From positions 310,001 to 374,000 of the forward strand of contig JAIVFI010000025.1 of NCBI GenBank assembly GCA_025558095.1: a DNA stretch of 64,000 nucleotides, read 5' to 3'. The notes beneath the pieces are model-generated. The model was not told the DNA's origin and ran no database searches. It saw only the letters and a program-made list of their open reading frames with translations. Shown here in pieces: positions 1-61,696 of the stretch. The stretch is from Hyaloraphidium curvatum (lineage: Eukaryota > Monoblepharomycota > Hyaloraphidiomycetes > Hyaloraphidiales > Hyaloraphidiaceae). The position numbers and the translations under genes were made by a program. Numbering within the stretch: the first letter of the stretch is position 1; the number at the start of each line of letters is the position of its first letter.

Positions 1-1830
1 ATCCGGAAGCAGAAGCGCGAGGAGTCGCTGGCCAAGCGGCGGAATCTGCAGCCCTTTGCTGACTCGGCGTCGGACGCGGAGGATGACGGCTCGGGCTCGC
101 TGATGTCGGGCGGCCAGCTGTCGGACCAGTTGCCGCAGATGGTGTCGGACGTGTTTTCGGAGGACCCGGAACTGCAGCTCCAGGCGACGGCCAAGTTCCG
201 GAAGCTGCTGTCGAAGGAACGGAACCCGCCCATCGAGGAGGTCATCAACTGCGGCGTCATTCCCCGCTTCGTCGAGTTTCTTCGCAGCCCGCATTCTCAA
301 GTTCAGGTGCGCGGCGGCTCCGGACCCGCTTCGAACAGTCTGACCATGGCATTCCAGTTCGAGGCGGCTTGGGCCCTGACCAACATCGCTTCCGGATCTT
401 CGCAACAGACTCAGACCGTGATTGAGCACGGTGCGGTGCCGATCTTTGTTGAACTGCTCCGCTCTCCCGTGCCGGATGTTCGCGAGCAGGTGGGCTGTGC
501 ACTCCGAAACAGCGGCACGTGCTTGACCGGTCATTGGGCAGGCCGTCTGGGCGCTCGGCAACATTGCTGGCGACCACCCTCGCTGCCGCGACTTTGTCCT
601 GGTCGCCGGAGCCCTGAAGCCGCTGCTGGACATCCTGAACGAGCCGACCAACAAGCTATCGATGCTGCGGAACGCGACTTGGACCCTGTCCAACCTCTGC
701 CGCGGCAAGTCCCCGCAGCCGGATTGGAACCAGGTGGGCGTGTGCGGTGCTTTCCCTCGCGTGCACGCATCCTTACGTTGGGCCGCGTCAGATCTCCCCC
801 GCGCTGCCCGTGCTGGCGAAGCTCATTTACGCGAACGACGAGGAGGTCCTCACGGACGCGTGCTGGGCAATCTCCTACCTGTCGGACGGCTCGAACGAAA
901 AGATCCAGGCCGTGATCGAAAGCGGCGTGTGCAGGCGGCTTGTGGAACTTCTCATGTGAGGCGGCCGGCCGATGGGTGCGCGGCGTTCTCATTCTTTCTT
1001 CAGGCACCCGTCGTACACTGTCCAGACCCCGGCGCTCAGGTCGGTCGGAAACATCGTGACCGGAGACGACGTGCAGACCCAGGTGGTGGTCAACTGCGGG
1101 GCCCTGCAAGCGTTGCTCGCGCTGCTGGCTAGCCCTAAGGACGGCATCAGGAAGGAGGCCTGCTGGACCATCTCCAACATCACCGCGGGCAACCCGAACC
1201 AGATCCAGGTACTGCACTGTTGTCTCGACTGGCTTACAGCTCCTCACTCCTTGTCCTGCAGGCCGTCATCGATGCCAACCTGATACCGCCACTGATCGAC
1301 ATCCTCCAGCATGGGGACTTCAAAACAAAGAAGGAAGCCTGCTGGGCGATTTCCAACGCGACTTCGGGGGGTCTGGCGCGGCCGGAGCAGATCCGGTATC
1401 TCGTCAGCCAGGGTTGCATCAAGCCGCTGTGCGACCTACTCGTGTCCGGCGACAACAAGATCATCCAGGTCGCGCTCGATGGGCTGGAGAACATCCTCAA
1501 GGTCGGCGAGATCGACAAGCCGCAGACAGAGGGCGTGAACCGGATGGCGCTCTACATCGAGGAGTGCGGAGGCATGGAGAAGATTCACCAGCTGCAGATC
1601 CACGACAACGTGGAGATCTACAAAAAGGCTTACGGGATCATCGACAAGTACTTCAACGACGAGGACGAGGACACTGGCCTGGCCCCGGACGTGGACCAGT
1701 CGACCGGCCAGTTTGCCTTCCCCTCGGACGGGATGATGAACATTCCGCAGGTGCGTCTGCGGTGCGGATTGCAGGGATGTCCCTCACGGTTTCGCTCCCC
1801 ATCCAGGGCGGCTTCCAATTCAACCAATGA
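1..1830 (+). CDS. SRP1: Importin subunit alpha (karyopherin alpha), 5' end missing
   Basis: The adaptor binds classical nuclear localisation signals and hands cargo to importin beta. The reading frame is already open at base 1, inside the basic autoinhibitory N-terminus (KQKR, AKRR), so the start lies outside the window. Seven exons are seen: 1-306, 358-489, 542-733, 792-955, 1004-1208, 1262-1750 and 1807-1830. They join in frame to 503 residues and a TGA. Armadillo repeats are clear from recurring helix signatures such as [33 protein letters not shown] and [11 protein letters not shown]; the Trp and Asn in each are the NLS-groove residues of the family. The last coding exon is only 24 nt (ends GGFQFNQ). 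Family identity is certain; the symbol is the fungal name for the single-copy form. Confidence 0.97.
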
Positions 1831-2182
1831 GCGATGCCAGGCGTGCCGGCAGAGCGCAGCCGGCGCGCGGCGGAATCTTGGTCTGCTGCATGGACATGCT
1901 GTCGCCTCTCGGGTCCCCAACCCCCCACTCCTCCCCCCCTCCCTCCCCTCCCCTTGGGATAGAACCTGGTATATGGCTGTACAATTCAAAAGAAGCATTT
2001 CGCGCCACAAACCTTCGTTCCCGGTGGCCGTCGTGTGAAGGTAGCCCGGACCGCCCGGACCCCCGCACAAGAATCAGCCAGGCTGGCCATCGCGCAATCA
2101 GTTTTCTCCGGCAATCATCGGCCCGGCGGCAAACCCGGGGTCTTTGTTCCTACAACCCCATCGCCAGAGAAAAGCGGCCGAA

Positions 2183-5100
2183 ATGCCGCCTCAGCGGGTT
2201 TCCGGCGGCGCATCGCTGCTGGTTGCCTACAACCTCGCGGGCAAGTCGGTGCTCGTCGTCGGCGGCTCGGCGACCGCGGCATCGCGGGTGTTCGCAGCCC
2301 TCGAGGCCGATGCCGGCCACGTCACGGTCGTCGCCCCCGCGGACGAGCTGTGCGCGGAGCTCGCAGCGCGCGCCCGTGCCAAGGAGGTCACGCACATTCC
2401 CCGCGACTTTGACGAGGCCAAGGACCTCGCCGCAGCCGACGACATCAAGGGCGTGGTCTTTGTCGCCCTCGAGGACTCGGTCCGCTCCAAGCAAGTCGCG
2501 ATGGCCTGCCGCAAGCGCAAGATTCCCGTGCACTGCTCCGGCTTCCCGGAGTACTCGGACTTCTTCTTGACAGCGACGTTCCGGGATCATTCTCTTCAGA
2601 TTTCCGTGAGCTCGGGAGGCAACGGGCCCACGCTGGCCAACCGGGTGCGCAACCACATCGCTGCGACTCTGCCCCCCTCGGTCGGCAAGGCGATGCAGCG
2701 ACTGAGCGTCCTGCGCCAGAAGTGGGAGACGAGACGCTGTGGTTCATGATCCCGACTCACCTCCGGGCTTGGCAGATTGCGCGAGGCCGACCATCTCACG
2801 GGCGCCGAACGCAGTGCCCTGCTGCGCCATGTCTCGGAGGAATGGCCGTTCGACCAGATCGCCCAGCTCTCTGACCTCCAGATCGCGGACCTCGTGGAGG
2901 GGGTCGACAAGCGCCTCTCTTCGGTGCTTCGCGCGAAGGGCCGGGTGCAGATCGTCGAGGCCACCACGGACAACATCGAGAATCTGACTTTGGGAGCCTA
3001 CCGCGCCCTTGCGAGTGGGTTGCGTTTGTCTCTCCGGAACGTTGGCGATCTTGACTTATCATGGCCCGTCAGACCCCGACTCGCTTGTGCTGGCCGCTCC
3101 TGGCACATCGGATGATATTCTTGCGGCTGTGTCCGGAGATCTCGTTGTGGTCAAGGACGGTCCGGCCGAAGCCGAACCCAAGATCGCGGCTGCGCTCGAG
3201 GCTGGCCGCAACGCCGTTTGGCTTGCCAAGGGCGCCTCCAAAAGTGTGGAGCTGCAGAAGTGGCTCGAGTCCAAAGGTTTCGAGCACACGGTGGGCCACG
3301 CTCTTTGGACTTATGCCAGTCAGGGAACTGATCCCAATCCGGCAGGCATTTGCGGCTCCGGAGGCCGTGCCTCGTTCGGTCCCCGCAAGCTCAAAAGCGG
3401 TCGTGGACACTTTGGAAGCTGCAGCACTGGCTCGCACCGGTCCGGTGGAGATCATGTCGGGGAACGCGGCCGTGGAGGCTGCGGTTGCGGCACTGAACGA
3501 CCAGATCTTCATTCACCCGCTGTCTCCCGCGGACTATCTCGGGGAAGGAATCACGGCGGCTGTCCAGAATGTCTTTGGCCGGTCGGTGAGGCCCGTCGTG
3601 AGGTCGACGAAGCTTGGTGCTGGGAACGGTTTCTTTGGCGCCCTGATGGCTGGATCCAAGGCGGCTTGCCTCACTTCTGGACAGGTCCTGCCTATGATGC
3701 TGCCGGTTAGTCTGGGTCTCCGTGGATTTCCGCGTATCGAAGCTTACGCCGGCTTCTGTGCAGGCCCTGTACGACATCGCCCTTCAGTGTCACCACGGCG
3801 CGGTGATCCACGCCACCGCCGACGTGATCGGAGAGGACCTCATCCGCCGTTCGGACTACTCGGACGTCCTCGGGGCCGCAGCGTCCGGCTTTGCGCTCCT
3901 CACGTCCCACTCTGTGCAGGAGGCCTATGACATGGCCATCGCTGCGCAGCTTGCGGCGGCAAGGTCGGGGGGCTCGGTGTTGCACGTCGTGGACGGCGGC
4001 CGCATTGCCCAGCAGCACTCGCAAGTGGTCAAACTTCCGCGCGAGGCCCTCGTCAGCGAGCTCGACAAGGCTGCCAAGGACGGCAAGGCACCGTTTGGAA
4101 AGGCGCTCGATGCCGTCTTCGCGGACCTGGAGAGCCACTTCGGCAAGAGGTACAGGGCGATCGAATACGCCGGTAACAAGAACCCCAAGGTGGTTGTGCT
4201 TCATGATGGAAGATCTGCGCTGACGTTTCTGCGCAGCTGGTCTACGTCGCGCTCGGAAGCGACGCCGCAGTTTTCGAGGACGCGGTCGTCAAGTCGTCGG
4301 TCCCCGCCGGCATCGTCAAGATCCGCCTTTACCGGCCCTTAGACGCCGCGGCCCTCCTCGCTGCGATCCCCGGCTCGGCGGAGAAGATTGTGGTCTGGGA
4401 CTCGGTGCTGGACGGCAACGCTTATCTCTACAAGGATGTGGCTGCTACGCTCGCGCGCCAGAGGTCAAATTTAGGCCTCATCCGGTTGAGCAACGCCAGC
4501 GGCAAGGCCCTGACGCCGTCGGCGATCATCGGCGCCACGAAGGTCCTTCTCCGCGGCTCGAAAACGGTCTTGGCCGCCGACCTGGCCGACTTTGCCGAGG
4601 AGGAGGTCGTGCCGGAGGGCGGCGAGTACCTCTTCTGGGGCACATCGGACATCAACATCGATCGAGTTACCGGTCAGATCGCGGCGCAGACGGCCCCTGA
4701 TGTCAGCACCCGCTTCCTTTCGCACGACGCCCTTTTGCCGACCGTTGTTTCTCGCGCCGAGCTCCGCATTGGCGGGCCCGAGGTCGCCGCCCCCGCCGCC
4801 TACCCCGTCTCCGCCGCGGACATTACTTTCGTGCTTGCGGACTCTGTTTGGGCTGGTTACGACGTTGTTGCCGACGCCAAAGACGGCGGTATCGTTGTCT
4901 TCAACACCGCGCTCAGCGACGAGGACCTGGACCAGGCCTTGCCTCTCGCCACCAAGAAAGCCATTGCAGCAAGGAGGCTCAAGGTGCTCGCCGTGGACGC
5001 CACCCAGATAGCGAAGAACTACACGATCTTCGTCGGCAAGCCCGAGGCGTATCTCGAGTTGATCCTCCGCGGGCTGTTCTCCCACTTGCGTTCGGACAAG

Positions 5101-6703
5101 GACGGTGCCCAGTTCATGCAGCGCATCCGCGAGGAGCTCTTGGCTGTCGAGACGAACTTCACCGTCTTGAGGACCAAGATCTCCGCCGTGGCGAGGGCCG
5201 TACGCGAGCTTCGGACCGTGAAGGCTTTCACCGTGGAGCAGGATGCAGAGGGCCAGCAACCGCTGAAGCGCAACGTGGACGGCACCATTCGGCTCGACGG
5301 TCCGCAGATCAACTTCGGCGACGACGAGGACGAGTCGGGCAAGTTTGCGGCGCACAAGTCGCACGTCGCCGCCTGGAACATCATTTTCCGCGAGTCGCTG
5401 AGGATGGACGATACCGTGGGTTGCGAATCGAGCTTCTTGGTCCGCTGCGCCTCCTGAACCGTGCCAACGTAGTCGATGCGCCCCGATGTGGCCGAGGCCC
5501 AGGTTGCCACCGTCACCACCAACGTCCGCGTCACCCCCGAGTCGTACGATCGCAACATCTTCCACATGGAGATCGACATTTCCAAGACCAACCTCAAGTA
5601 CCAGATGGGCGACGCCCTTGCGGTGCACGGTCTCAACGACGAGAAGGAGGTGGCCGAGTTCCTTTCCGACTACGGCGTCCGCCCCGACGACGTGGTCGTC
5701 ATGCGCCGGAGAAACGCGGCGGGCAAGGAAGTCAGCGACACGGTCACTGCCCGCCAGCTCTTCACCATGTACCTGGACGTCTTCGGCAAGCCGGCCAAAA
5801 AGTTCTACCAGGATCTCTCGGCGTTCGCCAAGGATCCCGACGAGAAGCGCACGCTTCGGTGGCTCGGATCTTCGGACGGAGAGGCCGAGTTCAAGCGCCG
5901 CGCCGACTTGTTGTACAGCTACGCGGATGTCTTGCTGGAGTTCAAGTCGGCCAGGGTCCCGCTCGGCGACCTCGCGCGGATCATTCCCTTCACGAAGCCG
6001 CGGGCGTACTCCATCTCTTCCTCGGCTTCGATGCATCCCACGAGCGTCCATCTGCTGGTCGTGCTGGTCGACTGGCCTGGCAAGGACGGCAAGATGCGCC
6101 ACGGGCAGTGCAGCCACTACCTCGCCAACATCCGGCCCGGTCAGCCGATCATTGTTTCGCTGACGCCGTCGGTCATGAAGCTTCCGGCGGACCCCAGCAC
6201 GCCCGTCATCATGGCCGGCCTCGGTACGGGGATGGCTCCCTTCCGCGCCTTTGTGCAGGAGCGCGAGTACATGCGCAACGAAGGGGCCAATGTCGGGGAC
6301 ATGTCCCTCTACTTTGGATCGCGCCACCGCGCCATGGAGTGGCTGTACGGCGAGGAACTGGAGGTGTACCATTCGGACGGTCTCCTCACGGACCTCAGGC
6401 TGGCCTTTTCGAGGGATCAGGCGAGGAAGGTATACATCCAGCACAAGATTTCGGAGGACGGCGATCGCCTCTTTGATCTGCTCACCCGGCAGAAGGGACA
6501 CTTCTACTTGTGCGGACCGGTGGGTTGCTGTTGCTTCGGTCCGTGTCTTCGTAACCTGACCGCTTTCGTAGACCTGGCCCGTCCCGGACATAAAGGCTGC
6601 GCTGATCAAGGCGTTTGTCAAGAACGGCTACACCGCGGAGTCGGCCGAGGAGTACCTCGACGAGCTGAAGGAAAGGGGTGCTTACGTGCTGGAAGTGTAC
6701 TAG
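2183..6703 (+). CDS. MET10: Siroheme-synthase-like module fused to sulfite reductase flavoprotein (Met10-type)
   Basis: Eight exons (2183-2721, 2776-3014, 3073-3290, 3346-3705, 3764-4189, 4237-5415, 5473-6519, 6572-6703) join in frame to 1,379 residues. Residues 1-235 are Met8-like: an NAD-binding LVVGGSATAASR loop and the VSSGGNGPTLANRVRNHI segment. Residues about 236-332 resemble the N-terminal half of uroporphyrinogen-III methyltransferase (LTLGAYRAL, GRNAVWLAKG), then stop short. From about 340 the protein follows fungal Met10: a pyruvate:ferredoxin-oxidoreductase-like region, no flavodoxin domain, then FAD binding (RAYSISSSA) and NADPH binding (GLGTGMAPFRAF, YLCGP), ending LEVY. Met10 passes electrons from NADPH to the sulfite-reducing subunit in sulfate assimilation. 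The usual catalytic Asp of the Met8 domain is Gly here (IPVHCSGFPEY). A Met1-type origin of the N-terminus is equally possible. All seven introns are 47-58 nt. Confidence 0.9.
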
Positions 6704-18770: not shown

Positions 18771-18811
18771 CGCAGAGGTAACGCAGTAAGTGGCTACACA
18801 CATATGGAATG

Positions 18812-21800
18812 CTACTTGCCACCAAAAAGGCGGTCCTCTCGGACTCCACCTCGATCAAGCCCACAATCGGGCACAGGCGAGGGCTCGCACCACCCGCCAA
18901 TTTGTAGAGAAGAAAGATAAGAAGACCCACGGCCGGGGCCGTCCAGCCTGACCTTCTTGGCAGAGCCGCGTCCCCGCGCCACCGCACCAGGACGCTTGGG
19001 CACGGTGGGAACGGATCCGGTCTGAAGAGTGGTGCCTGCAACGCCATCAGCTCACACGCTCCAAAGCGAGCAAAATCAGCGTACCAGCGGACTTCGCGGC
19101 CGGCTTCGACGGCTTGCGCCTCCTGGTGTCAGGCTTGAACGGCCAGGGGCGCTCGCCACCGGTAGCGATCGCGAACCAGAACAGGTACCCGATGGACCGA
19201 CAGCTGTTGACGTCCCTCATCCAGTACGTGCGACAGGTCGGGCAGTACTTGGCGCCCCGGATCTCGCCACGGCACCCGGGGTTGGTGATGGGGACAACGT
19301 AGGTCGTCAGGCACCTGCCGAGAGGGCGATCAATGCCGCGAAATCAGGCGCGAAGTACGAGGGAAAACTCACTTTGAACACATCTGGCTCGTCAGGTACT
19401 CGTTGATCAAAACGAGGATTCCAACGGCCGCGAGCGCGGCCCTGAACTGCACAATCCGAGAAGCCGGACCGCCCTTGCTTGCGTGACCAAAGCGGGCGGC
19501 GCCATAGGCGAAGGTGGTCTGGGAATCGAACTTGCCCGAGTACGGGTTGCGACACAGGTCGCGGGCGATCCAGTCGAGCACCTGCCGACGCCTCCGGATG
19601 GTACGGACGCGGTCGCGGCTGCAAAAGAAGGCGTCAGGAAGGCTGCATCCCAATCACGCAGGCTGGCCGTGAACAAACCATATCTCATCATTGCAGTAGA
19701 ACTTGACGACGGAGCAGAGCTCCTTCGTGATGGCATGGGCGTACTTGCGAAACTGCTCGCAGCTCGTCGTCCGCTGCGAAGGCAGTGCCGATTCCCAAGC
19801 CTCGATTGTCAGGCCGGAGGGGAGGGTGTGCGACTTGCGCAGCGACGCCAGTTTCCTAGAAGCGTGCTGGTAACCACACATCCGGCGATCGAGGTCCCCA
19901 GGCACGCCGAGAATGAGCTCCGGAAGCTGGCGGACGCCGGCGCGCCCAAAGCCGGCGATACCACCCCAGAACCTGTCCCCGTCGGCATCGGACCCGCCGT
20001 CGGGGTTGGGGAAAAGCGTCCAGTTCCGTTCGGCCTTCCGCAGCTTCTCGTCGCGGTTCGCATGCCCGCGGTTGGTCGGGCGGTGAGCCGAGAGCTTGGC
20101 GGCGCCGTCCGGGTGGTGTCGGCAGCGGATGTTGCGCGGCGCCGCCTGCGTCGCCCGCGCAACGCGGGCCGTCTCGTCGCAGGAGTGTTCGAGCCGGATG
20201 TCCTTGATGCGGCCCGCAGAGATGCACCCCTTGGGCACGTTGGCGCGCACAAGAATGTATGTCGATGTGGTGCCGTCCGGGTTGGTGACGACGATCTTCT
20301 CCGAAAGCTCGGGTAGGTGGGTGTTGGCGAAGTCGAACCGTCTCCCCGGGCCGGGGTCCAGGCAGCGGGCCACAAACGCGGGTGCAAGTCGTCGACCGCC
20401 CTGCATATAGAACCAGCGATTTGGATCGCAAAAGACAACGCCACCAGAAACGGGAAGGCCCCGTTGGGCGGCATCCCACATCTCCTCTTCCGTTGCCATT
20501 GTTAGGAAGTGCGGCATTAGCTTCTCCGCGTCCGCCTTCCGGCTAAAGTTGTAGCACGGTATAGAGGTCTTCCAGTCAACAGGCGGACGAGGTATCGATG
20601 AGCACGTAGAGCGAGGGTGCGGTGGGAGAGGAGCGGAGGTTGGAGGCTGAGCAGGGGCAGGTGGAGAAGAGGGCGGAAGCGGAGAAGATCCTGCGGCACC
20701 CACAGGCGAGGCCGTCGGGATGGGAAGAGGAGGCGGAGGAGCGAGGGTGGGAGTGAAGGAGGATGGAGACTCGGAAGGTACCGATGTGGAGGAGTTCGGT
20801 GATGTTGCGGGTGGGGGTTCGGGGGGGATGGAGGCGGGAGGCGGGAGCCCGATCCAATCCTGATCCACGTCCATCCACGTGAAAGGAGTCGAGTCGGGAT
20901 CTACCAGCAAGTGCTCGGCATCGTCGGTAATGGCGGGCGGGGGGAAGAAGACGGTCCCGCCAGCATGGAGCCAGCCGTGAGCTTGAAGATGAACACATCA
21001 GCAGCGCTGAGTGCAGCGGCAAGGATGACATACCATCAACGACGGCCATGCCCGGCGGGGGGTCCGGAGCACCGTGCGGAAGGGTGGGCACGAGGACCGC
21101 GGGCATCCCGAACGAATCTTGGGCCGAAAAGTCGTGCCAGTGGGCGTGCTGTTCTGGCTCCGTACACTCCCAACACGGCTCGGGCGATGGCGCGCTGAGG
21201 AAGACTGTTGGGAAGCAGGTTAGGCGCGGAAGCTCCGATGAAAGAACGGGGACCTACAATCCAAGGGCGGCGTCACTTTGGGCTCAGATTCCGTCCACTG
21301 CTGCTGCGGTGCCTTCGGCTTCGAAGCCCTGGGCACGACGGCCATGTGCTCCTCGACAATGGCAAAGGTTGGGCCACGAAGAACCATGCCAGCAATGCAC
21401 GAGCAGTGCAGCGCATCGCCCGACCGGCGAAGGGTCGGCCGTGAGGCGTCCGCGTGCCCTGCCGGGGAGCGCTTCCCCTCCTGATGGAGGCGGAAAAGAC
21501 GCTCGTCCTGAACAATTTTGTTGCCATTGTTGAACAGGTGTCCAAACAGGTAATCGGGGTTGATCTTGGCCACGTCCGGTGCCAAGGGGCCGAGCTTAAC
21601 ACCGAGCATCTTGAAGAGGTCGGGCAGATCGCTCGCGGTTATGTACAGGGCTATGGGGGTGAGGGAAATCCTGGTCAAGAGCGGCCGGATCCCGCCCGCG
21701 GCCCAGGTCCCTCCGGTGGTGCCGCCTTGGGTCCTTGACTGCTGTTGTTCATGAAACGTATCAGAATGACGACCTCACCACGGGAGAGAACGCGTCACCC

Positions 21801-24800
21801 ACGCTCTTCTCCCCGCTCCCTCCGGCCGCGCTGGACCATCGGCGAGCCGCCACACGTGACTTCCCCAATCGCTTCTTCACCTTGCCCTCGGGCGACAGCG
21901 GCGCCCGCTTCTTCCCCGTCGTGACGTAGCCATGGAATCGCTTGGGTGCCCCGTTCTTCGGCCACGGCTTGGGGTCCACTCGGATCGGTCGGCCCTTTTT
22001 CGACTTCTGCTTCCCGCCGCCGATCGTGGGGAAGTCGTCAGCAGCCTCAACATTGCCGTCTTCCGAGTCGGAGCACTCCATGTCCGCGCAAAGCAGGTCC
22101 ACGGCGGCACTTCCGCGGAACAGAGTCGCAGAGGGTCCACCACCCTCCGCCTCGTTCGCAGGGTCAACGTCCATTGCGGCCTCGGTGGTGAAGCTGGCGG
22201 CGACGCGCCGAGCGCTGTCCGCCGCACTCGATGATGAAGGTGTCGGTGTCGAGCTTTGCGGCAAGGCCGTCGGGCTTGGTTCAGATCCGGTCGAGGCAAC
22301 GCTTGACGATCGCCGCATCTTGAGCCTCGCGATCTGCTCCTCCCGCAGCCGCATAGTCTGAAAGAGAGCCTCGGAGCCAAACGCGTCCGCGTCCGCGCAT
22401 TTGCCCGTCTGCGCGAGGCGAAGTTCAGCTGTGCTCAGCTGACGCGCCCTCTGCCTCTCATCGAGCAGCTCCCTCTCGTAGCGCTGCAACAGCGCCTCCT
22501 TGTCCAGGCCCTCCGTCCACTCCGGCCCCCAAAAGCGGCTCTTTGTGGGGTGGATGCCAACCCCCTGCACGGAGGGGATCTCGACGGGGATGCCACGCAA
22601 CTGCAGCTTGTCAGCCACATACGTCTCGACCAGTTCGTGCCGCTCCTCCTCCTGCAGTTGCCTGATCGCTTCAGGCGGCATCCGGCGGAGTTCGGCTTGG
22701 GCCCGGTCGCGCAGATCCAGCAGGTACGCCGCCTTTGCGTCCTCCTCGTCCTGCGACTTGCCGCGCGCCTTCTGCGGCGATATGGCGACGCTGCGGATAC
22801 GCGTCGCCATCGCCGACCGCTTCAGCTCCACGTCCCGCTTCCTCAGCGAAAGCATCACGCGCTGTAGGACAGTCGCTGGCCATTTTGGCCGGTCGCGGGG
22901 CTCCCGCAGGTCCATGATCGTATTCAGCGAGCGTCCGGATAGCGGCAGGAGTAGCCAGGTCAGGCGAAGCCGAGCCTCCGCGTCAAACTCGGGGCTGCAG
23001 CCAAAGGCCGCGAAGCTGGTGCCGAAAAAGTTCGTATCACCCGTCCCGAGCTTGGCCAGCACGCAGCGCAAGATGTGGCCAATCTTTTGCCGCTTCACGG
23101 CGTTGTCCAGCTCCTCCTTCAGGAAGGTGCGGATCAGGTCCGAAAGCTCCTTGCGCAGCTGGATGGGGACGGTGCGGAGGCGTCCTGCGGCAAGATTCCT
23201 GAAGTAACCGAGCAGCGGGCCGCGCAGCAGGTAGTGGTGCCAGTCGGCAAACTCGGAAGCCAGGTCCGGCCTCAGCTCGTGGTAGGCGTCGGTGACTACC
23301 GCCCGCAGAACCGCAGCCGCCGCGTTATGCTCCTCCACGGAGAGGGTGCCGGGACCGTCAAAAACCTCGCCGTCGTCGGCCATCCCGTCGCCACCGAAGC
23401 CGGCGCCCAGAGCTTCCAGCGCGTGTTCAGGTCCGTCGGCTTCCCCCTCGCCGGCCAGGAAGTCCGCGAACCCGGCGTATTCACCGAAATCTCCGCCCTC
23501 CTCTTCTTCTTCCCCATCTTCGGCAGCGGGCTCGTCATCGTCCTCCGCCATTTCCGTGACCGTGCCGAGTCCCGCGCCAGTTGCGGTGATCTCCACGCCC
23601 GGATCCGTGCCGATGTCCCCGCGCGGCTTCTTCCTCCGGCGTGTGCCTGCGTTGGCGTTTAGCGCCCCCTCGTTCAAAACCACCAGCATCGCCATGTTCG
23701 CTACGACGGAAGGTGGGAACTTGCGCAGGATGGCAGGGGGAACGGAGCGGTTGTCCAGCAGACCGTTGTATACTGCCAGCATCGCCGAGGTCCAGACGAG
23801 CTTTGCAAAGGACGCCGCACCGGTTGCGGCGCGGGAAATGAGCAGCCCCACGCTCTTGAGCGGCTCGATCGCCCAGGGGTGGAGGGCCTCCTCGGGCAAG
23901 AACCAGGTTGTCGACATGGCGCGCTCGGTCACGTGCCGCTCGTGCTCCGCATCCCCGACGGCCTTGTACGCATTCTCCGCAGCTTGCCGCAAAGCCGGCC
24001 GGCATCCTCGCCGGTGTCCCCGGGTTGTCGACAGGCAGAGGTGGCACCTGGGCTCCTTTGCCGCGCAACCTTCGTCCTTCGCCCCGTCTACGTCCATCGC
24101 CGTTGCTCCGGCGGCAGCACTCTCCGCTTCCGTTGCTTGAGTGCGGCAGGCGTGCGGCACAATGTAGTTGACCTGGGCGAGCAGCAGTCCGCGCCGTGAT
24201 GTGAAGGCCCGGGGGATGACGAGGCTGGGACAGCGAGGATGAGTAATGACCCCGTGTGGATCTCTTGCGGAGACCTACTGGAGAGGAGCATCTGCATGCT
24301 GGGTTTCCACGTGTTCCCGGTACTTGGCCTCGAACGCAAACGTGACACGCCTGCCGTCTTTGCGGCAGATCTGGCACGTAAAGTGCTTCCCCGCGACGTG
24401 ATGCCCGAGCCGCACGCCAGCGTCGTACTGGCGCTGATCCGACGACTTGCCGGCCGTAGCGCCGTTCGCGTCCTTTCTCTTCCGCTCCGGGTTCCGAGCC
24501 GGCACCCGGCCCTCGACCGCCACTGTGAAGGGACAATAAAGGCATCCGAGGGAACAGATGTCGACGCGCTTGGCGTCAAAGGCCTTTTCGAGCGCGTCCA
24601 ACTTCAGGTGGAACGCGACGCTCGCGCGACGGGCGGCGTCGCTGACAGGGTTCACGAGCGAATCGAACCCCCAATAGTCCAGCAAATGGTCGCGCATCGG
24701 GTGGCCAGAAAAGATCAACTCAAACAGGACCGAGCGCCCCTCCTCTCCGTGCACAGCAGCCAAAGCCTTGTCGAAGAACGAGCCGAGGTCCGCGTCCGCC

Positions 24801-27393
24801 CTTTCGCTCACGCCTCTTAGCCCCTTCGTGGGCTGGAAGATCTCGTAGAAGGTCAGCGGCTGCGAGGAGTGCACCGTCAGCCCAGAATGCTGGAGCTGGA
24901 AGCCAGAACGTTGCTCACCAGCGCGGGCACCGGACCACGATCCGGTATGCCCAGGAGCGCCTCGTTGGCCTTCATGGGGCCCCAGAGGAAGGTTTCGAAG
25001 AAGATGCGGCGCTGTTCAGCCTGCTGAAAGGCAATGTCCTTGGGCAAGTCCGTGCGGACAACGAGCGCCATGCGCTCTTCCAGAGTCAGGCTGGCGAGCG
25101 CAACCTCGAGCGAACGACTCCTCCGATCCCACAGGGCTTTCCCGGACGCGTTCTTGAGCGCGCCGAGGGCGTCCTCCAGGATCTTGCGCCAGTTCTGCGG
25201 CCGGCGGAGGTGGGTCTGGGCTGGGAGCTCGAAGTCCTCCACGGGTATGAGCCCGGCTTCCGGCTGGCGAACGAAGTGCCGCACTCGAGCAAGGAATACG
25301 GAATGGACGAAATCATCCAAACGAGCCGCATCACTCGCCATCAGCCGCCCACGCAGACGGATCTCGGTCGCTGCCGTCCAGCGGTGGAAGCCTCCTTCAC
25401 GGTCGACCGCCACCAGGCGCGAGACAAAAAGTCGTTCCTTCCTCGTCGCGGAGAGGGACGAGTAACTGCCGTCCGGACGACCCTGGTCCAGGTCGGAAAG
25501 CCCGGCACAGCACGCGTACTTGACAGCCTCACGCAGGTCCTTGGGCACGGTCGGCTCCAGAGCGTAGTCCAGCAGAGCGTCCAGCTGCGCCCCCGGGGCT
25601 CCGACAACGGCTGGAGCGAAAATCGGGTTCGCTAAAACAGTTGGAAAGAGCGGCGGAGGCGGCGAGAGGCCGGAAGGGGTGCCCGCGGTGGCCGGCGATG
25701 GTTCGTCGGCGACGGGCGCGGGGAGCCGACGTCGCTCGACGAAGTTCCGCAGCTTCCGGCAGAGGGCCGCGCGGACCTCCTTGCCTTTGCCTTTCTCGAC
25801 TGCGGAGCATATTCCGCGGAACTGGTCGGGAGGGAGGGAGGTGAGGGTGCCGATGACGTCCTTGGAGGCGGTGGCGCGGGCGTTCTGCAGCTCGTCCAGA
25901 AACGTGTTCCACGCCGATCCGAAAGCACCTCCATTACTGAGTCCTCGTAGTCGGCCATAGAGCTGGTTCACATCGTAGGCCTTGTGGACGTCGACCTCGG
26001 CCACTCCGAGTTCCCGGGCCTGGGAAGTCAAACGGAGGTCGGCACGCGTCAATGACGACGGCGACGAGTTCCCCACCTCCTGCAGCAGGCGGGCCGCTTC
26101 TCGAGCAGCGATGCCGTCGTCCACCGCGTTCCTGGGCGCGGCCCCGGGACCCGGTCCGGTGTCCATGCGGGTCGAGTTTGTGTCTCCCGTGATCTCGCCA
26201 GTTGCCGTTTCCGGTTGTATGCACCCGCTCGTGGAACCAAGGTTGTCGGACCGAAGCATCTCCCGCTGAATGCGCGCCTTCTCTTCCGCGCTGAGCTTGA
26301 TGCAGTGCCGAAAAGTGGGACAGAGATCGCTCTCCCCAACAATTCGTATCGCCCTCTCGACAGCGTCAATCAGATCGGCCACAGTGGAGGGACAGTCTCG
26401 CCGGACAAGGCGCTTCAACCGCCCTATCACGCGCTCACTCGCATTGAACTCGGGAGTACGGGGTCGCAGGTACACGAGGTTGAGGTTGTTGGCTTTCGCC
26501 ACCGCCTGAACCGCGAGGAACGATTTGCCGGAGGTGTTCTCTACAATCGCAGTACCATTTGCGGTCTTCTTTGCCCTCAAAGGGGATCCATGGTAACCAG
26601 CATTGTCAATCACAATGTTCAGCGCGTTCTTGGGGCCCTGTCCGTCTGCCTTAACAGACCTCAAGAAAGCGCAGAATCGCTCCGTGTTCATATTGCCACG
26701 GTAGATCACATACGAGATCACCGTTCCAGCAACTGCTCCCGGACGAGGACTTGGTGACACTGCGAGACACAGAGTCACCTTTGGACCTCTATTCCGCGGG
26801 AGGTAGACAACAGCGCGGCTTCCGCGGTCCGAGTACCCGTGGCTGCCCGGGTCGTTGAGCTCGAAAGCCGTTTCGTCCAGTGCGACCATGCGTTCCATAG
26901 GCACATTCTCGATGCGACTATGAAACAGAAGATGCCTTTCCGGTTGCCGTAAGGCCTCGGAAGACTTGACGGTGAGCCTCTTCCTAGTGACGCCATTTGC
27001 CTTCAGCAGCCGCGAAACGTGCTGCTGGGAGACGCGGATCCCGTACTTTTCTGCCAGAAAAAGAACTAGCTCCTGCTGGGTGACCCTGACCTGGCTTTTT
27101 GCCTCGTGTACGATGTCCTGGACCATCTGGTCCGTGACCTTGCGGCGGCTCCGGACCTTGCGAACTCCCTCTCTCGATGCCGGGGGCAGCGATGCCCACT
27201 TGATCCAACGAAAATAGGTCGTGCGATGTACTCCCAACGACGCAGAAATCTCCGCCGAGCTCAGCTTCCCAGTCTGCTTGAGCCGAGTTGCGATGGCGGG
27301 GCCGTCCACCAACATTGGCGTCCGGGGCACAGGTAGTTGTGAAGAAGCCCGAGGCGCAGAGTTTGCAGATGGAGATGCCAAGGCCACTGGCAT
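18812..27393 (-). CDS. Giant DDE transposase-Fanzor (RuvC) fusion protein
   Basis: Nine exons on the minus strand: 27393-24919, 24859-24279, 24224-21803, 21738-21258, 21204-21034, 20981-19679, 19618-19373, 19314-19085 and 19035-18812. They total 8,133 nt and 2,710 residues, with phases matching at all eight GT-AG introns (49-64 nt). Most introns carry stop codons, so read-through is impossible. Residues 1-370: helix-turn-helix plus IS630/Tc1-type DDE domain with D173, D263 and E320. Residues 987-1013: C2H2-like finger (CQIC ... HVETQH). Residues about 1,000-2,200: long acidic and proline-rich regions I cannot assign. C-terminus: RuvC-I D2229 (VVFCDPNRWFYM), RuvC-II E2551 (LVLINEYLTSQMCSKC), zinc ribbon C2558/C2561/C2584/C2587, RuvC-III D2594 (WMRDVNSCRSI), then a basic NLS-like tail (KRPGAVARGRGSAKKVR). 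This matches the Fanzor/TnpB C-terminus. Without intron 24860-24918 the second exon has no ATG, which supports one gene. Separate transposase and Fanzor genes remain the alternative. Confidence 0.82.
19085..20427 (-). other. Fanzor/TnpB-type RuvC nuclease module with zinc ribbon
   Basis: Spans the three RuvC motifs of the fusion gene. RuvC-I Asp is encoded at 20425-20427, RuvC-II Glu at 19399-19401 and RuvC-III Asp at 19212-19214. The block FGHASKGGPASRIVQFRAAL ahead of LINEYLTSQMCSKC follows the order seen in TnpB and Fanzor, and the split CxxC...CxxC ribbon precedes RDVN. TnpB and several Fanzors are RNA-guided DNA endonucleases; activity here is inference from intact residues. Confidence 0.82.
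26284..27393 (-). other. Transposase module: HTH plus DDE domain
   Basis: The first 370 codons of the fusion gene. An HTH (EISASLGVHRTTYFRWIKW) and a second, winged segment (VTQQELVLFLAEKYGIRVSQ) precede the catalytic core. D173 lies in MVALDETAFELND (codon 26875-26877), D263 in NIVIDNAGYHGS and E320 in PEFNASERVIGRLK, the positions used by IS630/Tc1/mariner enzymes. There are 56 residues between D263 and E320, because about 20 residues are inserted after the second Asp. No stop or frameshift interrupts it. Confidence 0.88.
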
Positions 27394-27498
27394 TGGGGCG
27401 CTGCCGGCGGAAACAGCTAGTAGCAGAGGCGATGTGTGCGACTAAGTGAACCGGTGCCGGCTGTGATCGACGCGACGGGAAAACAGCGCGATCAACGA

Positions 27499-59127: not shown

Positions 59128-61696
59128 ATGGACCTCTCGACGGGCGCGGTCGCGCTCATGTACAACAGCGCGCTCGAGGCGCGCACGCCGACGCTGCAGG
59201 TGCTCAACATCAAGAAGATTCAGCCGCAGCCCGGCCAGCAACAGACGCAGGAGCGTTACCGGTGACGGCCCCGCCGCCCCCTGTGGCGCCCGCGCTGACC
59301 CCGCCCACACGCAGCCTCATCATCTCGGACGGGCAGCACTACATCCAGGGTGGGCTCGGTGCTTGGTCGCTGCCCCTCCCCGCTCTGACACCTCTTCGCC
59401 CCGCAGCCATGGTCGCCACGCAGCTCAACGAGAAGCTCACGTCGGGGCTGCTCCAGAAGAACGGCATAATTCAGGTCCACAACTGCGTCACGAACCAGGT
59501 TCAGGGGCGCAAGTGCGTGTCACATGATGGTCTCCCTGCGCTCGTTCCTTACCAGATCTCGCATCCTGCCTGCCTCTACAGGATCGTTATCATCCTCGGC
59601 ATGGACGTCCTCACCCCCAACAACGGCACCATGGAGAAAATTGGCGCCCCTGCCAACATCGAGCCCAACGCCGGCAACGAGGCCGGCGGTCCCCAGAACG
59701 CCGCCGCTCCGCAGCACCAGGCGCCCCCGTCGGTCTCGCACGCTCCCCCGATGAACAGCTACGGGGGAGGCCACGCGGCTCTGCCCCCGCAGAACAACTA
59801 CGGCGGGGGCCAGCCCGCGCCTCCCCAGAACCGCCCGCCGCAGTACGGCGCGCAGGGCGGGAGCAGCTACGGCGGCGGCGGCGGCGGCGGGTTCGGCAAC
59901 AACCAATCCAACGTGGCGAGGCCGGGCTCGGATGCGCACGGCGCCATTACTCCCATTGCCTCCCTCAACCCGTACCAGCAGAGGTGGGTCCGAACCCGCC
60001 TTGGGCTCCTATTGCCCAATCTCATGGCCGATTGTCAGGTTCACCATCTGCGCACGGGCCTCCAACAAGTCGGACATCAAGACCTGGAGCAACCAGCGCG
60101 GCGAGGGCAAGCTGTTCAGCGTCACCTTCCTCGACGACTCGGTGTGTATTTCGATTTTCGCGTCGCGGTCATTGGTGCTCATTTGCCATGGCAGGGCGAG
60201 ATCCGCGCGACGGCCTTCAACGATCAGTGCACCCGGTTTTTCGACCTCGTCGAGGACGGCGGCGTCTACTTTGTCAGCAAGGCCGACATCCGCGTTGCCA
60301 AGGGTGGTTTCGGCTCCAACAACCAGTACGAGCTACAGCTTCGGCACGACACCACCATCGAGAAGGTGCGTCTTCCTTGATTTTGTGTCGCTGCTTTCTT
60401 ACGCACTTGCAGTGCAACGACAGCAGCGTCGGCGTCCCCACCATCCGCTACAACTTTGTCCCCATCGCCAGCATCGGAGAGTACGAGAAGGACGCCCAGA
60501 TCGACGTCATCGGCGTGGTCAAGGACTGCGGCGAGGTCCAGCAGATCATCTCCAAGTCCACCCAGCGGGCGGTGCGTTCTTTCGTATCGACGACCAGCGC
60601 CCTTTTGACACGGACTTTCTTTCCAGATCGACAAGCGCGACATCACCATCGTGGACGACAGCAACCAGTCCATCCGCCTGACCCTATGGGGCAAACAGGC
60701 CATGAACTTCCGCGGCGACAACAACCCGGTCATTGCCGTCAAGAGCGCCAAGGTCGGCGACTTTGGCGGTGAGCAACTCTGCCCTCGTGTCTTGATAGTG
60801 CAGCGTTTTGATACTTTTCTTCAGGCCGCTCCCTCTCCCTCTACTCCACGAGCACCCTCACCATGGACCCCGACATTCCCGAGACGCACCGGCTGTCGAG
60901 CTGGTTCAACGGCGGTGGCCGGACCGCCGAGTTCCACAGCTTCGCCGGCACCATGGGCGGCGGTGGCGGCGCCGGCGGCCGCAAGGACGTCTTCAAGACC
61001 GTCGCCCAGGTCAAGGACGAGAACCTCGGCCACGGCGACAAGCCCGACTACTTCAACCTCAACGCCACGATCGTCTTTATCCGCAACGAGAACGTGGCGT
61101 ACCCGGCGTGCCCCACCGAGACGTGCAACAAGAAGCTCAACGAGGAGGGGCCGAACAACTGGCGCTGCGAGAAGTGCCAGAAGTTCTTCGAGGCGCCGAA
61201 TTGGAGGTGCGGTTTGCGCCATGCTGGAACTTGGTGTCTTCGTTGCTCATCTCTTGCCATTCAAGGTACATCATGAGCTGTTCCGTCAGCGACCACACGG
61301 GCCAGATGTGGCTCTCGGCCTTCAACGAGACCGCCCAGGCGATCCTCGGCGGCATGTCCGCGAACGACCTGATCGCCTTGAGGGACTCGGACTCCAACCG
61401 GTACGGCGAGATCTTCACCGATGCGACCTTCAAGCGGTACAACTTCCGCGTGCGGGCCAAGATGGAGAACTTCAACGTGCGTATCGTTTTGCGGGGAAGG
61501 AGGGACGGAAGCTAAAACCTCAATCGGCCTTCCCACAGGAGGAGCAGAAGATCAAGTGCAGCATCATGGCCGCGAGCCCGGTGGATTGGTCCGAGATGTC
61601 GAACCAGTTGATCGAGACGGTTGGTCTTTGAGCGTTGCCGCATGTTGACTTGACTCATCGTCGTCTTCGGAGCAGATCAACCAGTACGGACAGTAA
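59128..61696 (+). CDS. RPA1: Replication protein A 70 kDa subunit
   Basis: Large subunit of the ssDNA-binding RPA heterotrimer. The N-terminal OB fold starts MDLSTGAVALMYNSALEART. A Gly/Pro/Gln-rich linker (SYGGGGGGGFGNN) leads to the DNA-binding core: SLNPYQQR-FTICARASNKSD (OB-A), FNDQCTRFFDLVEDGGVYF, QSIRLTLWGKQAMNF and NPVIAVKSAKVGDFGG (OB-B). OB-C carries a zinc ribbon, CPTETCNKKLNEEGPNNWRC followed by KC (Cx4C...CxxC), and ends CSVSDHTGQMWLSAFNE and IKCSIMAASPVDW. The last exon is 21 nt (INQYGQ and stop). Multiple introns of about 50 nt. Confidence 0.96.

Follow-up and report, generated by a model that had tools for sequence, protein, structure and literature searches.

Comparative analysis of a 64,000-nt stretch of Hyaloraphidium curvatum DNA (hereafter the window) reveals a transposable element with, probably, one gene, which we predict from its sequence to be spliced into a ~2,685-residue transposase–middle–nuclease fusion, with intron 1 as a possible switch. 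The pre-mRNA would be spliced at eight short introns, and the resulting protein would carry an IS630-like DDE transposase at its N terminus, a middle of ~1,000 residues, and a TnpB/Fanzor-like RuvC nuclease at its C terminus. Splicing of intron 1 would yield the fusion, which we take as the main product. Retention of the same intron would end translation at a TGA in its branch site and release a ~812-residue transposase alone, so that splicing may switch the products of the gene. The comparison establishes the element and its copies, the gene order, conservation of the predicted intron and retention of the catalytic residues. An earlier note on this DNA had proposed transposase and nuclease as one polypeptide, and the comparison favors that proposal, with the predicted intron bridge present in all four families that we compared (A to D) and the gene order kept at 17 of 17 genomic matches to the first long nuclease exon.

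The Element and Its Copies

The window element belongs to family A, of which five near-identical copies, the window copy included, are present in the 31.9-Mb genome (55 contigs). The other four lie on contigs C36, C5, C16 and C4, and their match to the window starts at 27443 or 27442 and stops at 18791. In the coding region the C36, C5 and C16 copies differ from the window by substitutions only, none of which creates a stop. In the C4 copy one base is inserted in exon 4 and the first ATG is missing; under the gene model, four of the five copies are free of coding indels and stops. Recent copies of family A differ by eight synonymous and seven nonsynonymous substitutions (27.6% synonymous expected) and those of family B by 13 and 28, respectively (positions 61–6600). 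These substitutions show little sign of constraint or selection.

Table 1. Features of the family A element in the window
Feature	Coordinates	Strand	Basis
Transposable element, family A, 8,653 nt	18791..27443	-	Homology to four other copies, with unlike flanks beyond
Target-site motif CGCGTCGATC	27465..27474	-	22 nt upstream of the element; in 5/5 family A flanks, each with no more than one mismatch
5' terminal sequence GTCGCACACATCG	27430..27442	-	Common to 5/5 family A copies
Exon 1: DDE_3 transposase with HTH domains	24919..27393	-	Pfam DDE_3, E 3.2e-12
Intron 1 (predicted), 59 nt, GTGAGC...CTGAC...GCAG	24860..24918	-	Corresponding intron in B, C and D
Exon 2: cysteine-containing region (mid1)	24279..24859	-	36% identity to B over 200 residues
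Exon 3: middle region (mid2)	21803..24224	-	33% identity to B over 656 residues
Exons 4 and 5 (intron 21257-21205): N-terminal part of nuclease region	21034..21741	-	42% identity to B over 135 residues
Exons 6 to 9: RuvC nuclease with TNB zinc ribbon; stop 18814-18812	18812..20981	-	PF07282 matched by 4/4 spliced members
Hairpin followed by T run; candidate omega-RNA or 3' structure	18824..18858	-	Folds as a hairpin in A and B
3' terminal sequence ATGTGTGTAGCCA	18791..18803	-	Common to 5/5 family A copies; forms, by eye, a weak inverted repeat with the 5' end

Family B consists of ten copies that are mutually 99.7–99.9% identical in their 5' parts over 3.8–4.0 kb, and its transposase shares 45–48% identity with that of family A. 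Families C and D are represented by one damaged copy each, both on contig C2. In all four families a DDE_3 transposase is followed, on one strand, by a long middle and then by a TnpB/Fanzor-like nuclease. Genome-wide, all 17 matches to the first long nuclease exon have a transposase match upstream of them on the same strand, and 12 further transposase loci have no match to that exon; both counts were made by hand and are lower bounds. The TNB profile has three matches in the genome, one of which, C5:336026 (L002, C5:334526–337672), has no transposase match nearby, and this nuclease type may therefore also occur apart from the transposase.

Gene Model

Spliced on the minus strand at eight GT-AG introns (24918–24860, 24278–24225, 21802–21742, 21257–21205, 21033–20982, 19678–19619, 19372–19315 and 19084–19036), the window copy has an uninterrupted frame of 2,711 residues that begins with the ATG at 27393. 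The eight in-frame introns and single frame of the earlier note, which counted 2,710 residues, are thus borne out. Seven of the introns come from a gene-model script whose codon table was trained on the exons of A and B and whose splice scores were set by hand. The last, 19084–19036, was placed by eye and has a counterpart in family B with the donor after the same K-S-A-G residues. Run separately on each family, the script recovered intron 1 and the next intron in A, B, C and D; the C and D models cross lesions and needed weak junctions, one in C and five in D. Translation likely starts at Met27 (27315), which would give the chain 2,685 residues: the first ATG is missing from copy C4, and the frame of family B has its earliest Met at the aligned position.

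For comparison with a host gene, the same script models RPA1 (59128–61628) with eight introns of 47–83 nt; the protein from this model was recognized as RPA70, its best PDB match being 4gnx, from Ustilago. The introns of the element resemble those of host RPA1 in size and sites, which we count in favor of a spliced gene. From the comparison of families we infer both the splicing of the element transcript and a stable fused chain as its product.

A Conserved Predicted Intron Bridges Transposase and Middle Region

The unspliced transposase ORF of family A stops at an in-frame TGA (24879–24877) that lies within intron 1. That the transposase stop falls inside a 59-nt intron with a GTGAGC donor had been proposed from the window alone, and it holds up, with a corresponding intron found in B, C and D. 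This intron is 59, 57, 59 and 60 nt long in A, B, C and D, respectively, has GT-AG ends and keeps the frame in all four families. The donor is at the corresponding place in each, and the in-frame TGA follows it at a distance of exactly 39 nt in 4/4 families. Moreover, the letters around the TGA resemble a branch site: they read CTGAC in A, CTGAA in one B copy, TTGAT in C and CTGAT in D; the last letter of the B word is T in the other nine B copies, which makes it CTGAT. Sequence similarity restarts directly after the AG, both between A and B and between C and D. The earlier note had also proposed looking for fused relatives, and such predicted relatives are found in the same genome, each family having the joining intron.

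Intron 1 received splice scores of 7.25, 5.55, 6.1 and 6.75 in A, B, C and D; the B score, just below the control threshold of 5.6, is that of the CTGAA copy and not of the T variant. In the control, an ORF of at least 100 aa was counted when its stop could be bridged by an intron scoring at least 5.6 into at least 150 open codons. Seven of 352 ORF stops in the window, with the minus-strand ORFs of the element omitted, and 1 of 105 antisense ORFs of A to D were bridged in this way, and at least one of the seven, at 60769, corresponds to an intron in our model of RPA1 from the host. As a property of the sequences, the predicted intron-1 bridge, present in four of four families, exceeds chance.

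An alternative that we consider unlikely, if worth weighing, is that two proteins are made, the transposase ending at the TGA and the middle–nuclease part arising from a separate or alternatively spliced transcript through another donor or an internal promoter. Residue similarity within A/B and within C/D runs on up to the TGA, and the stop is equidistant from the donor in the four families. By eye, in the peptide from the start of intron 1 to the TGA, A and B are alike at 7 of 14 positions and C and D at 6 of 14, the stop included, which means that the transposase may simply end there. Such an ending was our first idea; it was dropped once C and D placed the TGA in the corresponding intron, and it is kept here as a rival. 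In addition, exon 2 has in-frame Met codons from which a second protein could begin. The earlier note was wrong to state that this exon has no ATG of its own, as an in-frame Met lies 54 codons past the join in A. However, the position of the first Met is not conserved, being codon 9, 42 and 69 in B, C and D, respectively. Two further features weigh against separate proteins: the frame is kept in four of four families with three different intron lengths, which separate genes would not need, and the similarities in the transposase and in exon 2 are separated by the intron alone. The constant in-frame distance of the TGA itself could mean that a truncated product is needed, or simply that the intron was inherited. 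The single spliced gene stays our preferred reading; weighing against it are also the substitution pattern of recent copies, the damage in C and D, the TNB match at C5:336026, the poor structure model and the dissimilar middle regions of A/B and C/D.

Transposase and Middle Region

The transposase of family A matches DDE_3 (PF13358), with catalytic residues D173 (26877–26875), D263 (26607–26605) and E320 (26436–26434), and the D, D and E are found in both A and B. The second D and the E are 56 residues apart in A and B and 57 in the D model, in which the transposase glutamate is lost; a spacing of 34 in the C model was rejected as an artifact of a weak junction there. In IS630/Tc1/mariner transposases the corresponding spacing is typically 34–39 residues, a range into which neither A nor B falls. 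A TA target-site duplication was not found in family A, where the 5' flank ends in TA in three of five copies and the 3' flank starts with TA in none of the five. The window copy is flanked by CTTA on both sides, and the other four copies show, by eye, only partial repeats. In family B, for which both ends were seen in eight of ten copies, the 5' flank ends in TA in four and in TC in six of the ten. The designation IS630/Tc1-type given earlier therefore stands for the catalytic domain, and it does not extend to the residue spacing or, in family A, to TA duplication.

The mid2 exon has no Pfam match, and the middle regions of A/B and C/D have no significant similarity to each other. In the family C middle (L065) we observed a weak match to OTU cysteine proteases (E 6.9e-4, 20.6 bits against a cut-off of 23.3). 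This match is the one feature that speaks for a fused precursor that is made and then cleaved into separate enzymes, a reading we regard as improbable: the OTU match is below the cut-off, family A gives none at E up to 1 (the scans covered A and C), and the middle regions do not align.

That the whole arrangement is a set of chance open frames joined by chance GT-AG pairs in GC-rich sequence is scarcely credible, since, even with 377 stop-to-stop ORFs of at least 100 aa in the window, protein similarity between A and B and between C and D spans transposase to nuclease, and control bridging rates are low.

Nuclease Module

The C-terminal part of the predicted chain has the three acidic RuvC residues in order, D2230 of RuvC-I (20427–20425), E2552 of RuvC-II (19401–19399) and D2595 of RuvC-III (19214–19212), all on the minus strand, and a C4 zinc ribbon ahead of the third, an arrangement present in all four families. 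In the spliced RuvC regions of these families the motifs D-P-N-R, E, C..C...C..C and RD-x-N-S are invariant. The spliced members of all four families match PF07282 (OrfB_Zn_ribbon / Cas12f1-like_TNB), the best at E 5.6e-8; the window member matches with 25.6 bits and E 1.4e-5, just below the curated cut-off of 26.3, and unspliced exon 8 alone gives no match. The earlier note had named failure of the C terminus to match Fanzor/TnpB profiles as an outcome that would count against it, and a TNB match is what was found in 4/4 families, in the window just under the cut-off. A profile built from the four families, searched against solved structures, matched LaTranC (4.6e-4), the TnpB-like L79 (5.8e-4) and, weakly, Guillardia theta Fanzor1 (0.068). 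Predicting the structure of the family C nuclease exon together with those of three relatives yielded no usable model (pLDDT 39.5).

Bao and Jurka (2013; PMC3627910) give a range of 125–275 residues from the RuvC-I Asp to the [TS][TS]xxC4 ribbon motif. The corresponding distances of 324, 337, 342 and 317 residues in the A, B, C and D models, of which the C figure takes in a probable unspliced intron, all fall outside that range. Because of this distance we use the name TnpB/Fanzor-like for the nuclease, which may or may not belong to the Fanzor1 clade. By its sequence it is a divergent nuclease, TnpB/Fanzor-like in the broad sense. The name Fanzor used earlier thus survives in the broad sense, with the TNB match and the RuvC D/E/D residues, and is at odds with one published spacing rule. 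In SpuFz1 the metal is coordinated by D383, N385, E541 and D606, according to Saito et al. (2023; PMC10432273), and the D-P-N, E and RD motifs of our families correspond to these by motif rather than by structural alignment. SpuFz1 differs in being, as described there, a stand-alone protein with demonstrated omega-RNA-guided cutting, whereas the putative nuclease described here would be one module of a longer predicted chain.

A 3' Hairpin and Family-Specific Target Motifs

Near the 3' end of the element, A and B share the hairpin of Table 1 with 92% identity over 37 nt and one gap; other blastn matches between A and B do not exceed ~72%. In A the hairpin overlaps the final codons of the gene model, and in B it follows the stop (L059, ~1939–1975). 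A pattern written for the hairpin of both families returned ten places, all of them in family B, A being missed owing to the gap.

The insertion sites are also distinctive. In the five family A copies, CGCGTCGATC ends 22, 22, 22, 19 and 7 nt before the element, with one mismatch in two copies; 48 of 50 letters agree, and the best of 60 random sets reached 41. Upstream of family B, a GGGCAAGGGGTT-like word ends 26 nt before the element in seven of ten copies and 25, 29 and 14 nt before it in the others. By letters the B motif is modest (89/120, with 87 the highest value among 60 random sets). When the B flanks are aligned at fixed distance, eight of 60 columns reach 7/10, the T adjoining the element being among the conserved columns, and none of 2,000 random sets reached this number (maximum 7). 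The random sets of these motif tests were drawn from the window only. Scanned with a position weight matrix, the insides of elements A and B contain no target motif above background. A family-specific motif at near-fixed spacing, ~22 nt in A and ~26 nt in B, suggests sequence-directed integration.

On the single-gene reading, the nuclease would cut the empty site using RNA from the 3' end of the element, of which the 18858–18824 hairpin is a candidate part. Tethered to the transposase, its cutting would favor keeping or homing of the element. Cutting of the empty site with a 3'-end RNA to the advantage of the element is a role drawn from work on TnpB. This nuclease may work with such an RNA, and the element may make use of intron retention. 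A bolder version, to which we give little credence, has the RNA-guided nuclease module direct or license the attached transposase, the spacing of ~22 and ~26 nt being a footprint of the tethering; the element would then be, in principle, a eukaryotic counterpart of guide-directed transposons.

Relation to Known Systems

The bacterial insertion sequences IS605 and IS607 have another transposase chemistry and encode their proteins in separate genes, unlike the element described here. They resemble it in that a transposase (TnpA) travels with a TnpB-type nuclease (PMC10711439). Also comparable are the Mariner elements PGv-1 and PUl-1, which carry Fanzor1 and a transposase, described as separate proteins by Bao and Jurka (2013; PMC3627910). 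Each of these eukaryotic or viral transposons likewise contains both a Fanzor nuclease and a transposase from the IS630/Tc1/mariner group. In contrast to these elements, with their separate proteins and TA duplications as that account has them, the element reported here has one predicted spliced frame with ~1,000 residues between the two enzymes and, in family A, no TA duplication. The words "fused" and "fusion" are absent from the main text of that paper, and "fused Fanzor," where it occurs in the text of PMC10711439, denotes tagged proteins. A search of the open-licence literature listed no transposase–Fanzor fusion.

Protein searches for fused relatives and for transposase relatives, with ~8,000 candidates scored in each, returned none at E ≤ 0.001, negatives that, given the uncertain share of eukaryotes in the searched collections, say little about eukaryotic relatives. 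Viral contigs likewise gave no relative.

A fusion of this kind bears on the question of why transposons carry TnpB or Fanzor and how the nuclease keeps step with excision. If true, the covalent fusion and possible splicing switch would be a natural experiment on the coupling of transposase and nuclease, and the fusion would offer a scaffold for studying RNA-guided homing in cis. Two multicopy families with near-identical copies and mapped insertion sites make these ideas testable.

Other Loci

A related transposase ORF of 822 aa was observed at C5:413000–424220 (L019, L067). Queries with A and B gave no middle or nuclease homology in the ~7 kb downstream of it, and this ORF is possibly an unfused relative. 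On C15 (~543498–553764; L011, L027) a B copy adjoins a transposase remnant, and its 3' flank looks, by eye, like the N terminus of a family E transposase; this copy may be a nested insertion. Finally, three B copies (L015, L016 and L018) have deletions just within the 5' end that leave the terminal GTTTCACACACAG untouched.
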